Shown piece by piece: positions 40,844-46,496 of a stretch of 64,000 nt of DNA (position 1 is the stretch's first letter; each line of letters begins with the position of its first letter). The stretch covers positions 1,054,001 to 1,118,000 of the forward strand of contig JAIBBC010000001.1 in NCBI GenBank assembly GCA_019694875.1, given 5' to 3'. The stretch is from Cyclobacteriaceae bacterium (GTDB lineage Bacteria > Bacteroidota > Bacteroidia > Cytophagales > Cyclobacteriaceae). A model generated the notes under the pieces. That model ran no database searches. It saw nothing but the letters and a program-made list of their open reading frames with translations, and was not told where the DNA came from. Position numbers and translations under genes: made by a program.

Positions 40844-40863
40844 ATCCTCCTTTTGGTGTTTTG

Positions 40864-41823
40864 ATGTCCAGACTAGGTTTTTATATCATTTTTTGCCTTC
40901 TGACGCTAACCAGTGCGGGTAAGCTATTTGCCCAACAGGATGCCCAATTTTCGCAGTACATGTTCAATTCGCTTTACATTACTCCCGCAGCTGCAGGAGC
41001 TGATGGAGTTTCGCGATTCATGGCCATGCACAGAAGCCAGTGGCTCGGCTACCAGTCTTCGTTTGACGATCGTGGCGCACCCACATCACAGTTCATTTCA
41101 TTTAATGCTCCCATCCACAAATTAAACAGCGGTGCCGGTGGCTACCTCCTTCACGATAAGCTTGGAAACCTGAACAACCTGCAGGTACAGGCGCTTTATG
41201 CCTACCACCTAGGCATCGGAGAAAGCAAGCTCAGCTTCGGTATTAAACTCGGAGTTTTTGCCCAAACTGTTGACGGGGGCGAATATCGCTACATCCAGGA
41301 GGGAGACGATCTGATCATCAACGGTAAAGAAACTCAGGTCCGCCCGGACGTGGCCCTTGGTATGATGTACCGCAACGAGAAATTCTACGCAGGTTTCGGG
41401 GTTAACCACCTTACCAACGCAACCTTCGATTTCGGCAAAAATGGCTCCCGGAACGCCCTTGAAAGACATTTAAACTTCACAGCCGGCTACTACTACGATG
41501 TGAGTTTCGACCTTCAGATTATGCCGACTGTCCTTGTAAAAACGGATTTCAACGAATATTCATTCGATCTCGGAGCGATCGCAACCTACCGGAATACGAT
41601 GTGGGGCGGGTTATCGTTCAGACAATCAGAAGCATTGAATGTGATCCTCGGATATGCCCTTTTAAAGGATAAATCGCTGAAATTGGGCTATTCTATAGAC
41701 ATCGTACTGGTAGATAAACAAGCTAAGAGCGGAAGCTCACATGAACTCATGTTAACCTATGATTTGCCGATAAGCCCGGGTAGCGGTAAAAAGATCATCC
41801 GAACCCCCCGCTACAGGCATTAA
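40864..41823 (+). CDS. porP: T9SS outer-membrane protein PorP/SprF
   Basis: I chose the ATG at 40864 (319 residues; a TTG at 40861 is directly before). A signal peptide ends KLFAQ, followed by the family signature QDAQFSQYMFNSLYITPAAAG, then amphipathic beta-strands forming a barrel that ends at the C-terminus. PorP/SprF proteins connect the type IX machinery, and many family members act in adhesin/filament export. The gene precedes gldK by 131 bases, the usual Bacteroidota order. No fault is visible in the frame. Confidence 0.93.
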   Translation: MSRLGFYIIFCLLTLTSAGKLFAQQDAQFSQYMFNSLYITPAAAGADGVSRFMAMHRSQWLGYQSSFDDRGAPTSQFISFNAPIHKLNSGAGGYLLHDKLGNLNNLQVQALYAYHLGIGESKLSFGIKLGVFAQTVDGGEYRYIQEGDDLIINGKETQVRPDVALGMMYRNEKFYAGFGVNHLTNATFDFGKNGSRNALERHLNFTAGYYYDVSFDLQIMPTVLVKTDFNEYSFDLGAIATYRNTMWGGLSFRQSEALNVILGYALLKDKSLKLGYSIDIVLVDKQAKSGSSHELMLTYDLPISPGSGKKIIRTPRYRH

Positions 41824-41954: not shown

Positions 41955-43040
41955 ATGAACAGATCGGTTGCTTCAAAATGTCTTCTCATCCTGGCCGGTG
42001 TCGCTGCAAGCGCGTGTGGTTTATTAGGGCTTGGTGGCAAAAAGAACGATTCACAGGGAGAGTTGGTTGGCGTTCCGGGCCGTGAAGGCTGGGTACTGAC
42101 TGTGCCATACGGTATGGTTCCAATCCCTGCGGGTACATTCCACATGGGTCAGGCAGATGAAGATCCTGCGTCAACCCAAATCAACTACAACAAGCAGGTA
42201 ACGATCGGTTCGTTCTTCATGGACGATACCGAAATCACCAATAACGAGTACCGTCAATTCACCAATTTCTACCTGGTAGATCAGGGTAACATTGAAGGAT
42301 TTGAAACAATTGACGCAGAAACATTCCGTCAGAAGTACTACCCTGACACTACTGCATGGGTAAAAGACTTCGCGCACCACATGGGCGACCCAATCCAGGA
42401 CTATTACTACTGGCACCCGGGTTATGACGACTATCCGGTAGTGGGTATCAACTGGGATGCAGCAACGTATTTCTCAAGCTGGAGAACAGCTTACCTCAAT
42501 GACTACCGCAAGAGCGTGGGAGATTTCCCGATGCCGAATTTCCGCCTGCCTTCAGAAGCTGAGTGGGAATATGCAGCTCGCGGAGGAAGAGACTTGGCCA
42601 AGTATCCTTGGGGTAACCCGTACATCCGTAACGCAAAAGGATGTATGCTCGCGAACTTCAAGCCGGGTCGTGGTAACTTCTACGATGACGGTTTTGCATA
42701 TACCGCACAGGTTATGATGTACTTCCCGAACGACTACGGTTTGTATGATATGGCCGGTAACGTATCGGAGTGGTGCCTTGATGATTTCAACGCTGCTTCA
42801 GTGCCTACTGTGTGGGATTTGAACCCTCAGTATATCGATCCCCGCACCAATCCGGAAAGTCCGAAATACAACGAAAAGATTGCTCCTAAGAAAGTTATCC
42901 GCGGAGGTTCATGGAAAGATGTTGCGTATTACCTGGAAACCGGCACAAGAACATTTGAGTTTAAAGATTCTACCCGTGCTTACATCGGCTTCCGTTGTGC
43001 GATGACACACCTCGGACGCTCATCCGGACGTGAATTTTAA
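41955..43040 (+). CDS. gldK: Gliding motility/T9SS lipoprotein GldK (PorK)
   Basis: This 361-residue lipoprotein has the lipobox Cys at 21 (AASAC). The body is a formylglycine-generating-enzyme-like fold (PAGTFHMGQ, ITNNEYRQFTNFY, RLPSEAEWEYAARGG, GNVSEWCLDDF, IRGGSWKDV, IGFRCAM). GldK uses this fold structurally, and with GldN it forms the large periplasmic ring of the type IX system beneath the outer membrane. It is shorter than the Flavobacterium GldK and P. gingivalis PorK that I recall (over 450 residues). It heads the gldKLMN run. Confidence 0.96.
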   Translation: MNRSVASKCLLILAGVAASACGLLGLGGKKNDSQGELVGVPGREGWVLTVPYGMVPIPAGTFHMGQADEDPASTQINYNKQVTIGSFFMDDTEITNNEYRQFTNFYLVDQGNIEGFETIDAETFRQKYYPDTTAWVKDFAHHMGDPIQDYYYWHPGYDDYPVVGINWDAATYFSSWRTAYLNDYRKSVGDFPMPNFRLPSEAEWEYAARGGRDLAKYPWGNPYIRNAKGCMLANFKPGRGNFYDDGFAYTAQVMMYFPNDYGLYDMAGNVSEWCLDDFNAASVPTVWDLNPQYIDPRTNPESPKYNEKIAPKKVIRGGSWKDVAYYLETGTRTFEFKDSTRAYIGFRCAMTHLGRSSGREF

Positions 43041-43105: not shown

Positions 43106-43930
43106 ATGAGCAAGAAAAAAGGCGGATTTGTTGAACTTCTATTTAAAACCATCATGCCTAAGGTATATGGTATAGGAGCAGCAGTTGTAATTGTCGGAGC
43201 CTTATTTAAAATTCTTCACCTCCCCGGTGCTGATGAAATGTTGATGATCGGTCTCCTTACTGAAGCCGCTATCTTCTTCTTAAGTGCATTCGAACCACCA
43301 CATCCTGAAACGGACTGGTCAAAAGTATATCCAGAGCTTGCTGAAGACTTCGAGGGTCCGGTAGCTGCTCCAACAGTAAGAAAAATCGGTGCTACTACTG
43401 ATTCTCCGCTGTTGAAAGTTGATGAAATGCTGAAAACTGCAAAGGTTGATCAGAACTTGCTCGACAACCTCGGTAAAGGTTTAAACAACCTCGCAACATC
43501 GGCATCTCAAATGAACAACCTTTCAAACGCTGCTGTAGCTACTAACGAGTATGCTACCAACGTTAAGACCGCTTCTAAAGCTTTGTCTGATATGAACGCC
43601 TCATACAAGACAGCAATCGAAGCAGTTGGTTCAATGGCTAACGCATCTAAAGATGCTGGTGAGTACCACTCTCAGGTTCAGAAAGTAACGAAGAATCTTG
43701 CTGCATTGAATTCAGTTTACGAAATGGAATTGAAGGATGCTGATTCTCATGTTAAGAACATGAACAAGTTCTACGAAAGCCTGACAGGTGCTATGCAAGG
43801 TCTTTCTAAAGTTGGTGATAACACTGCGAAGTTCACAACTGAACTTGGCAAGTTGTCGGATAACCTGACTGCCCTGAACAATGTTTATGGCAGCATGCTC
43901 ACAGCCATGAAAGGTGGCGGTTCTAAATAA
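43106..43930 (+). CDS. gldL: T9SS motor protein GldL (PorL)
   Basis: This 274-residue inner-membrane protein has two transmembrane helices near the N-terminus (GIGAAVVIVGALFKILHL and MLMIGLLTEAAIFFLSAF). The second contains the conserved Glu (TEAAIFF) thought to take part in proton conduction. A long cytoplasmic coiled-coil-like helical tail with repeated Asn/Lys/Ala patterns follows. GldL with GldM forms the proton-driven rotary motor powering secretion and gliding. It lies 65 bases after gldK and 49 before gldM, which agrees with one operon. Confidence 0.95.
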   Translation: MSKKKGGFVELLFKTIMPKVYGIGAAVVIVGALFKILHLPGADEMLMIGLLTEAAIFFLSAFEPPHPETDWSKVYPELAEDFEGPVAAPTVRKIGATTDSPLLKVDEMLKTAKVDQNLLDNLGKGLNNLATSASQMNNLSNAAVATNEYATNVKTASKALSDMNASYKTAIEAVGSMANASKDAGEYHSQVQKVTKNLAALNSVYEMELKDADSHVKNMNKFYESLTGAMQGLSKVGDNTAKFTTELGKLSDNLTALNNVYGSMLTAMKGGGSK

Positions 43931-43979: not shown

Positions 43980-45575
43980 ATGGCAGGTGGTAAGGAAACC
44001 CCAAGGCAGAAGATGATTGGTATGATGTACCTGGTGCTTACAGCCCTTCTCGCCCTTCAGGTGGGAAGCGCGGTACTGGATAAGTTCGCCATCATCAATA
44101 CCACGATGGAGAAGACAAATGGTGAGAACATTGCCAAAAACACCGAAACACTGAAGACTATTTCAGATGCGGCTGGTAAATCTGATAACCCGAAAATCAA
44201 AGGCGCAAAGGATGCAGCTGAAAAAGTGCGCACGTTAACAGATAAGACTTACAAGAACATTGAAGGTCTCAAAGAGGCGATGATTAAGGAATCTGACGGC
44301 ACAGAGATCAACGAAAAATTGATTCAGAACCACGGTTCTAAGGCTGCTGCTATGATGATCAACAAGCCAATTGGTAAGGACTACGAGAAGTGGTTGAAAG
44401 ACTATGTTAACGAGCTTAATTCAATTGTTGCCGCAGCAGGTGTGAAAGACACCAAATACGATGACATTGCAAAGGCTCCGAAAGACTTAGATTTGTTTAA
44501 GGATAACAAGGATCACGCAAATAAGGACTTCTTAACGTTTACGTTCGAGAACACACCTGTTATCGCGGGCCTTGCTTCAGTAACAGAAAGTCAGGCGCAG
44601 ATTTTGGACTATGAGAAAGATGCATTGGCGAAACTTGCTGCCATTGCAGATGCCCAGAACATTAAGCTTGACAAATTCATTTTGATGGCGCGTCCGAAAT
44701 CTTCCATTGTGGCCGCGGGTTCTAAGTATGAGGCTGACCTGTTCATTACAGGATCTTCATCTGCGATGAATCCAACCTTCACTAAGGATGGCTCTAACAT
44801 CCCCGTAGTTGATGTAGAAGGAATTAAGATGGGTAAAATCGAGTTTACGGCGACAGCAGGTGCTTACGACAAAGATGGTAACGCTAAGAAAAGCTTTAAA
44901 GCTGCTGCTAAACTTGGAGACAAGGATATCCTTGGTGACATCGAGTACTTCGTGGCAAAACCTGTTATCAAGGTTACGACGGGTACCGCGCCAACACTTT
45001 ATATGGGCTGCGGTAACAGCGTGAACTTTGAAGTACCTGCTTTGGGAACCAACTATAAGCCAAGCTTCTCAGCATCGGGCGGAAAAGTGGTGCCGGGTTC
45101 TAAAACCGGTAACGTAATTATTATTCCAAGTCAGCGGAAGGTTAATGTAACCGTTACAAATGCGGGTGCAAACCTTGGGGTTGAAGCATTCGATGTTAAG
45201 CCAGTTCCACGTCCGCGCATTATTGCAAAAGACAACAACGGTCGTGACATCGACTTGAAAAATGGTATCAAAGCAGGATCAATAGCGGGCTTGCGTGTGA
45301 ATGCTGAAGCTGAGGCTAACTTCAAAACAGAAGTTCCTAAGGATGCTAACTATCGTGTACGTAATATGTCTGTTATCCTGGCCCGCGGAACAGCCCGCGT
45401 ACAGGAAATGACGGTTACGTCTGAATCAATCGATCTGGCTGGCTGGCGCTCATTGATGCGCCCCGGAGACAGAATTGTGATTGAACCTAAGAATGTTGTG
45501 CGTATGACGTACGAAGGAACACCAGAGCCGGTAACCGTATCTTCGGCTGATCTGGTTCAAATACCTGTTAACTAA
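43980..45575 (+). CDS. gldM: T9SS motor protein GldM (PorM)
   Basis: This 531-residue protein has one N-terminal membrane helix (MIGMMYLVLTALLALQVG) and a long periplasmic part. A helical D1 domain (about 40-220) precedes three beta-rich domains, ending at the GldM C-terminal domain (PRIIAKDNNGRDIDLKNGIKAG). GldM spans the periplasm as a dimer and passes torque from the GldL motor to the GldKN ring. Length is close to the family norm. Codon use and spacing fit the operon, and no frame damage is seen. Confidence 0.96.
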   Translation: MAGGKETPRQKMIGMMYLVLTALLALQVGSAVLDKFAIINTTMEKTNGENIAKNTETLKTISDAAGKSDNPKIKGAKDAAEKVRTLTDKTYKNIEGLKEAMIKESDGTEINEKLIQNHGSKAAAMMINKPIGKDYEKWLKDYVNELNSIVAAAGVKDTKYDDIAKAPKDLDLFKDNKDHANKDFLTFTFENTPVIAGLASVTESQAQILDYEKDALAKLAAIADAQNIKLDKFILMARPKSSIVAAGSKYEADLFITGSSSAMNPTFTKDGSNIPVVDVEGIKMGKIEFTATAGAYDKDGNAKKSFKAAAKLGDKDILGDIEYFVAKPVIKVTTGTAPTLYMGCGNSVNFEVPALGTNYKPSFSASGGKVVPGSKTGNVIIIPSQRKVNVTVTNAGANLGVEAFDVKPVPRPRIIAKDNNGRDIDLKNGIKAGSIAGLRVNAEAEANFKTEVPKDANYRVRNMSVILARGTARVQEMTVTSESIDLAGWRSLMRPGDRIVIEPKNVVRMTYEGTPEPVTVSSADLVQIPVN

Positions 45576-45590: not shown

Positions 45591-46496
45591 ATGAAAATGC
45601 TGAAGAGAGTTGTTCTGTATGCTTTAATTGGAGCTCCACTGGCCGTACTTGCACAGCCAGATGAGATTCAATACAATCCAAATTCGCTTGATCCGATTGC
45701 GCGCTATGAGCAGCACTACAAGAGACGCGTTTGGCGAACAATCGATTTGAGAGAAAAGCAGAACAAAGGATTTTTTGCCCGCAACGGAGAAATTAGCAAG
45801 CTGATCATGGAAGCTGCTAAGTCCGGTGAGATTGCAGAAATCTTTCAATCAGACTCTCTTAAATCAAAATGGACAAAAGAGGAATTCCAGGGAAAACTTC
45901 AGGCGGCACCTCCGCAGAGTTTCCCTGCTTGGGATCCTGCAACACCCTATTATCTGAATGACGTTGTTTCTTTCAATGGAAAGAACTACGAAAGCCAGAT
46001 CGATAACAATACAGGTGTAAATCCAACCACCGTTAAGAATGGTGAGTGGACTGTAACTAAGCAGGGAGCCGGACTGGATTATCTTCCTAACCAGGTTTAT
46101 CGCCTTAATCTTGTTGAAGACATGATTTTCGATAAGAGAAGATCACGCCTGTACTACGATATTCAGGCTCTTGAACTTTCTGCGTTCGATGATGCAACGG
46201 GTACATTCAAGTCTTTGGGATGGTTTAAGTACAAAGACCTTGAAAAAGTTTTCCGTAATAATCCTGAGAAAGCAGTTTGGTTTAACCGCCAGAATACAGC
46301 ACAGAACAAGAACTATGCGGATGCATTCCTTCTGAGATTCTTTAAAGGAGTTATCTACAAGGTTGAGAATCCGGATGATAATACATTGGATGATGTATAT
46401 CGCGCGAACAACAGGCCTTATTACGAAGGTGTTTGGGCACGTGAGTGGGAAGAGATGAAGCTCATGGAAATGGAGCACAATCTCTGGGAATACTAA
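45591..46496 (+). CDS. gldN: T9SS ring protein GldN (PorN) with a chitin-binding-like insert
   Basis: This 301-residue exported protein has a signal peptide ending VLAQ. The N-terminal part (RRVWRTIDLREKQNKGFF) and the C-terminal half (DMIFDKRRSRLYYDIQALE; ADAFLLRF; EMEHNLWEY) match GldN/PorN, the ring partner of GldK. Between them, residues 112-156 (45924-46058) form an insert with the aromatic pattern of a family 5/12 carbohydrate-binding module: PAWDPATPYYLNDVV, then FNGKNYES, a Pro, and GEWTV. I recall no such module in other GldN proteins. It may let the ring grip a glycan; that is inference. Confidence 0.95.
   Translation: MKMLKRVVLYALIGAPLAVLAQPDEIQYNPNSLDPIARYEQHYKRRVWRTIDLREKQNKGFFARNGEISKLIMEAAKSGEIAEIFQSDSLKSKWTKEEFQGKLQAAPPQSFPAWDPATPYYLNDVVSFNGKNYESQIDNNTGVNPTTVKNGEWTVTKQGAGLDYLPNQVYRLNLVEDMIFDKRRSRLYYDIQALELSAFDDATGTFKSLGWFKYKDLEKVFRNNPEKAVWFNRQNTAQNKNYADAFLLRFFKGVIYKVENPDDNTLDDVYRANNRPYYEGVWAREWEEMKLMEMEHNLWEY

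Follow-up and report, generated by a model that had tools for sequence, protein, structure and literature searches.

Does a structural protein of the type IX secretion system (T9SS) contain a genuine carbohydrate-binding fold, and does such a fold still hold chitin-like glycans? This question is raised by gldN/porN in the window, i.e., the whole stretch of 64,000 nucleotides analyzed here. The gene (45591..46496, plus strand) codes for a 301 aa subunit of the T9SS ring and gliding track, and hosts a stretch that a first-pass annotation, made from the letters alone, had read as a module of the carbohydrate-binding families 5 and 12 (CBM5/12).

The host gene and its neighborhood

The identity of GldN was established by Pfam (PF19841; 2.3e-57, 194.8 bits against a cut-off of 23) as well as by TIGR03523 (118.4 bits against a curated cut-off of 85.9), bearing out the earlier view that both flanks of the module are ordinary GldN. 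The protein has the PorN fold and, judged by eye, a signal-peptide-like N-terminus. According to Pfam matches of the neighboring open reading frames, the gene stands last in the row porP/sprF-gldK-gldL-gldM-gldN, all on the plus strand. Upstream of gldK lies porP/sprF (40861..41823; PorP_SprF, 2.6e-68), followed by gldK, the ring partner with an FGE-sulfatase fold (41955..43040; FGE-sulfatase, 1.4e-49), gldL, the motor (43106..43930; GldL_N, 2.6e-32), and gldM, the motor shaft (43980..45575; GldM_1st to GldM_4th), the fourth domain of which is the expected contact to GldN.

A CBM5/12 fold within GldN

The Trp, Tyr, and Asp pattern claimed for residues 112-156 (45924-46058) was confirmed letter by letter and reads A113-W114-x5-Y120-x2-N123-D124-x-V126-x-F128-N129-G130-x2-Y133-E-S ... 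P145 ... G151-E-W153. The module does lie in this range, its extent by fold being slightly larger (about residues 109-160, 45915..46070, plus strand), with strands at 125-128, 131-135, and 153-156. It is preceded by a junction (residues 97-108, 45879..45914, plus strand) made up of a GldN helix (96-103 in the model) and a run into the module, as read from DSSP of the model and from alignments, and followed by a second junction (residues 161-170, 46071..46100, plus strand) that leads up to strand 171-181 according to DSSP and the PorN alignment of a relative.

The excised module of 57 aa (45903-46073) matched Pfam CBM_5_12 (PF02839) with an E-value of 5.2e-6 and 26.8 bits, just above the cut-off of 26.2. 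With the whole GldN as query the score was 23.4 bits and below this cut-off, and in a search of the genome it was 25.9 bits, or 26.4 with neighbors. From the window's stretch and 29 of 64 other module sequences, 30 in total, a module profile was built; 24 of these 30 excised stretches matched CBM_5_12 at E<0.01. The profile retrieved solved chitin-binding domains (2rts, 7.2e-9; 1ed7 of chitinase A1, 1.3e-6; 2d49, 7.3e-5) and, in addition, the DUF3472 protein 8pn5 (6e-8), deacetylases, and a phage tail fibre (9rkv, 5.9e-5). PHROG tail-fibre families matched the module as well (best 1e-6), and a BFVD search returned nothing at E<=0.001. The predicted structure of GldN shows the small three-stranded beta fold of CBM5/12 type at this place; a model of the module alone, folded from a single sequence, was poor (pLDDT 55) and set aside. 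Together with the profile matches, this places the module in the CBM5/12 fold, being more than a chance likeness.

Insertion and single origin

A search for relatives returned 217 hits at 210 loci, which reduced to 196 distinct GldN-like rows; those shorter than 250 aa, partly fragments, number six. This sample is skewed toward the window's kin, with 140 rows from order-level kin and 56 from class-level loci. A module profile split it into 65 GldN with the module (E<=2.8e-5) and 131 without (best 0.029). In the model the slot lies between helix 96-103 and strand 171-181, and module-free GldN fill it with short linkers, acidic Gly/Asp/Trp linkers, or a few other sequences. The module is thus an insert, as had been proposed, and its residues are not part of a core common to all homologs. 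An acidic, Gly-rich and often Trp-rich slot linker of low complexity (e.g., DDGWGD) was observed in L021-L024, L065-L067, and many of L071-L112.

These data also bear on the objection that the likeness is accidental and the residues belong to the ordinary GldN core. The whole-protein score below the curated cut-off would fit this objection; against it stand the profile and fold matches, the 131 of 196 sampled GldN lacking the module, and the slot of about 32 residues in PorN of Porphyromonas gingivalis. Distribution, profile, and fold led us to reject it, and we rate its probability as negligible.

A tree of 120 rows (45 with the module) was calculated with the slot columns omitted. Six rows (fragments and one odd paralog) were dropped, every fifth class-level locus was taken, and the set was thinned at 85% identity; L063, a low-coverage draft with GldN in two frames, was excluded. 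The tree is a quick one with SH-aLRT support only and long branches on some rows. On it, module presence required one change (SH-aLRT 98), compared with a mean of 36.5 changes for shuffled labels, and no module-free row fell inside the module side. The nearest module-free row, L021, has an acidic linker in the slot. Among the sampled sequences, the GldN module therefore has a single origin.

Distribution across genomes

Family and genus counts follow the search tool's own codes and not NCBI names. The module was found in the GldN frame of all 17 genomes of the window's genus and, across the family, in a GldN-sized frame of 47 out of 196 genomes (190 with GldN) from 18 genera; the frames of these 47 were compared by eye with known GldN places. 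Within the order sample, 4 of 118 genomes have it in a GldN-sized frame, all from the window's family, and the sole frame of similar size outside the family (G421, 286 aa) does not look like GldN. Within the class sample, GldN has the module in 2 of 109 genomes, both of the window's genus. G283 and G319 also gave matches, located in frames of 386-570 aa whose contigs differ from the ones with their listed GldN. The slots read at 48 of 50 class-level loci showed no module. NCBI names on named contigs of module rows include Cyclobacteriaceae, Fulvivirgaceae, and Chryseotaleaceae; two drafts are named Bacteroides and Chitinophaga. In one draft (G022, contigs C13 and C151; L026, L097), GldN occurs twice, as a copy containing the module and a copy whose linker does not resemble that of its family, possibly a result of contamination.

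Module copies were also detected outside canonical GldN. In the window's genome, the Pfam profile gave a single CBM_5_12 match, GldN itself, and our own profile gave a second one in L237 (1339-1995). This is one of four small proteins (with L242, L245, and L246), from four genera that also have the GldN module, which contain close module copies behind starts that resemble secretion signals by eye. The rest of these proteins resembles HEAT repeats weakly at best (HEAT_2, 19.8 bits in that of L242; cut-off 27.7). Moreover, tandem GldN-like frames of 558 aa (three genomes, g85) and of 628-634 aa (three genomes, g101) were found. In the two that were scanned, L250 and L248, Pfam GldN matched in two stretches of each. 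The module occupies the slot of the first half in g85 (L248, L252, L253) and of both halves in L243, L244, and L250. When slot columns are omitted, the six halves from L243, L248, and L250 fall together with module-bearing GldN (98), on very long branches. The canonical GldN read in g85 (L099, L105) is without the module, unlike the tandem frame of that group.

Conservation and selection

Within the 65 GldN modules, the residues required for the fold are kept almost throughout: W153 and P145 in 65/65, Y133 and G130 in 64/65, and either W or Y at position 114 in 65/65. Position 120 is Y, F, or W in 62/65, so that together with W153 the core aromatics are in place. PMC8449059 assigns a core role in other CBMs to the Tyr after the first Trp and to the last Trp, the equivalence resting on our own alignment. 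Among the features that GldN modules have in common apart from the fold are D138 and an aromatic residue (Y or F) at position 121, present in 57/65.

The mean pairwise identity of the module (0.39) is below that of the GldN core (about 0.60), showing the module to be less constrained. Pooled dN/dS values (61 pairs) were saturated at synonymous sites, and consequently only near pairs were used. Between the window and L003, the module differs by 26 synonymous changes per 29.7 sites and 2 non-synonymous changes per 105.3 sites; comparisons within the nearest trio (window, L002, L003) give 20-26 and 2-4, respectively. In the nearest kin sampled, the module is under purifying selection.

The fast evolution of the module relative to the core also suits a loosely constrained spacer. 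In such a reading, the module would be a folded filler with no partner, placed where other GldN have a disordered linker. The slot does vary by lineage between short linker, acidic Gly/Asp/Trp linker, and module, and its sequences evolve fast. Against a mere filler speak a module side of the tree free of any module-free row, the strong synonymous excess among the nearest kin, and shared features such as Y121 and D138. We consider it rather improbable and place it third among the readings of function.

Ligand residues

Starting from the binding of chitin-like GlcNAc polymers by CBM5/12 modules, the first-pass annotation had further suggested that the insert could help the ring grip peptidoglycan strands or position the machinery close to glycans with GlcNAc. 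The title of a cited reference names Gln679 and Trp687 of chitinase A1 as participants in chitin binding, and PMC8449059 describes an exposed aromatic pair as almost fully conserved in CBM5. By our own count in the alignment to 1ed7, Trp687 corresponds to Val143 (codon 46017..46019, plus strand), Gln679 to Ile137, and Thr663 to Tyr121 (codon 45951..45953, plus strand), the latter being a candidate contact residue. Position 143 is never Trp in the 65 GldN modules and Y or F in only 3. At the positions of the CBM5 pair, 136 is aromatic in 0/65 and 137 in 5/65, the full pair occurring in none; a Trp anywhere between 134 and 150 is absent from all 65. The exposed ligand aromatics, whether Trp687 of CBM12 or the pair of CBM5, are thus missing, and canonical chitin binding is not supported, nor is a grip on GlcNAc polymers of the kind known from CBM5/12 modules.

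The pair is likewise missing from the modules of the tandem GldN-like frames and of the small proteins. In related genomes, 12 modules were read from seven long frames with several domains (L238-L241, L247, L249); 7 of these modules, one per frame, have the pair (e.g., AKWWT or AKYWT), and the other 5 are without it. Since pair-free modules also occur in these long frames, the loss of the pair is not peculiar to GldN.

A different mode of glycan binding has to be weighed, in which the module holds peptidoglycan or O-glycans of envelope proteins on an altered platform, steadying or guiding the ring or gliding track. Tyr120 and Tyr121 could be parts of such a platform. The CBM5 of an Erwinia endoglucanase uses a Trp near the equivalent of position 121, which makes an altered platform possible. 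Homology to chitin-binding modules, relatives among phage tail-fibre and tailspike proteins, the frequent aromatics at 120 and 121, and a slot that would face the periplasm all speak in favor of this reading, as does the glycosylation of PorK and PorN in P. gingivalis given in PMC12635249. Against it count the loss of both known sets of ligand residues and the retention of the pair, once per frame, in the long multidomain frames. We regard it as possible though unlikely, ranking second.

Place of the module in the ring

In PMC12421860 and PMC12635249, PorN sits beneath PorK and contacts it through the turns N44-W47 and F156-D162 (for the second turn, PMC12421860), and a model places domain 4 of PorM at loops 4 and 6 of PorN, with a cross-link at A241. 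The slot of GldN corresponds approximately to PorN 109-140 in the numbering of PMC12421860, as counted by us via an aligned class relative. According to the model and the PorN alignment, strand 171-181 leads away from the slot and reaches the counterpart of PorN F156. As this strand links the slot to a PorK-contact turn, the slot is expected at the end of the sheet remote from PorK, towards the motor and the periplasm or cell wall. The model being monomeric, we infer the place of the module in the ring. The ring of P. gingivalis consists of 31-35 PorKN units according to PMC12635249; a ring resembling it would display about thirty modules, one per GldN.

Proposed function

Kept by selection and devoid of the usual chitin-holding residues, the module has probably been repurposed. 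We favor a docking or packing domain of structural character, which touches a protein partner rather than chitin, over binding of glycans by an altered platform, and the latter over a spacer; to this favored reading we give about an even chance. The GldN of one Cytophagales lineage contains a CBM5/12-fold domain, of single origin among the sampled sequences, in a slot for which the nearest module-free GldN has an acidic linker. The chitin-holding residues are gone, with the fold residues kept and an aromatic at 121 common. By homology with PorN, the domain should be presented once per GldN subunit, at the end of the sheet remote from PorK and facing motor and cell wall, where it may pack on a neighboring ring subunit, on GldM, or on a glycosylated envelope protein.

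For GldM, a crude comparison of lineage-specific columns (47 module-bearing versus 34 other sequences) revealed no excess in domain 4 (7/120) relative to domains 1-3 (13/150, 2/93, and 12/79, respectively), so that this test for a corresponding change in the motor came out negative, which counts against the favored reading. As a separate observation, GldM domain 3 (window gene 43980-45575) has 12 of 79 columns that consistently differ between module-bearing and other sequences, more than domain 4.

In a bolder proposal, a captured CBM with its site rebuilt around Tyr120 and Tyr121 would read a glycan or glycoprotein, one per GldN, on the side of the ring or gliding track that faces motor and cell wall. 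We hold this to be speculative and fairly unlikely. If true, the machine would hold on to the cell wall or to glycosylated partners in the envelope, or track along them.

Relation to known systems and significance

The T9SS ring structures found in our searches are from P. gingivalis, the PorN of which (PDB 9mzu, 9ots, 9myj, 7pvh) has the slot of about 32 residues and no CBM-like domain. The module differs from the CBM12 of Bacillus circulans chitinase A1 (1ed7) by lacking its Trp687, from CBM5 domains (2rts, 2d49, 6z40, and 4hmc of MmChi60) by lacking their aromatic pair, and from all these chitin binders by its location within a ring protein. Phage tail fibres and tailspikes contain CBM5/12-like modules (PHROG 20878, 5073, 9851; PDB 9rkv, 8kec, 5js4) that match it in sequence or fold, but these belong to virion proteins, a setting unlike the GldN ring. 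Titles and abstract openings of the GldN papers retrieved yielded no mention of a CBM-like module.

The insertion bears on how the T9SS ring and gliding track relate to the motor and the cell wall. By taking up a folded domain of foreign origin, GldN points to a face that tolerates extra mass, and the domain can be used for labelling and binding studies in cultured species such as Chryseolinea serpens and Ohtaekwangia koreensis (L036, L061). It represents a clear example of a molecular machine recruiting a carbohydrate-binding fold.
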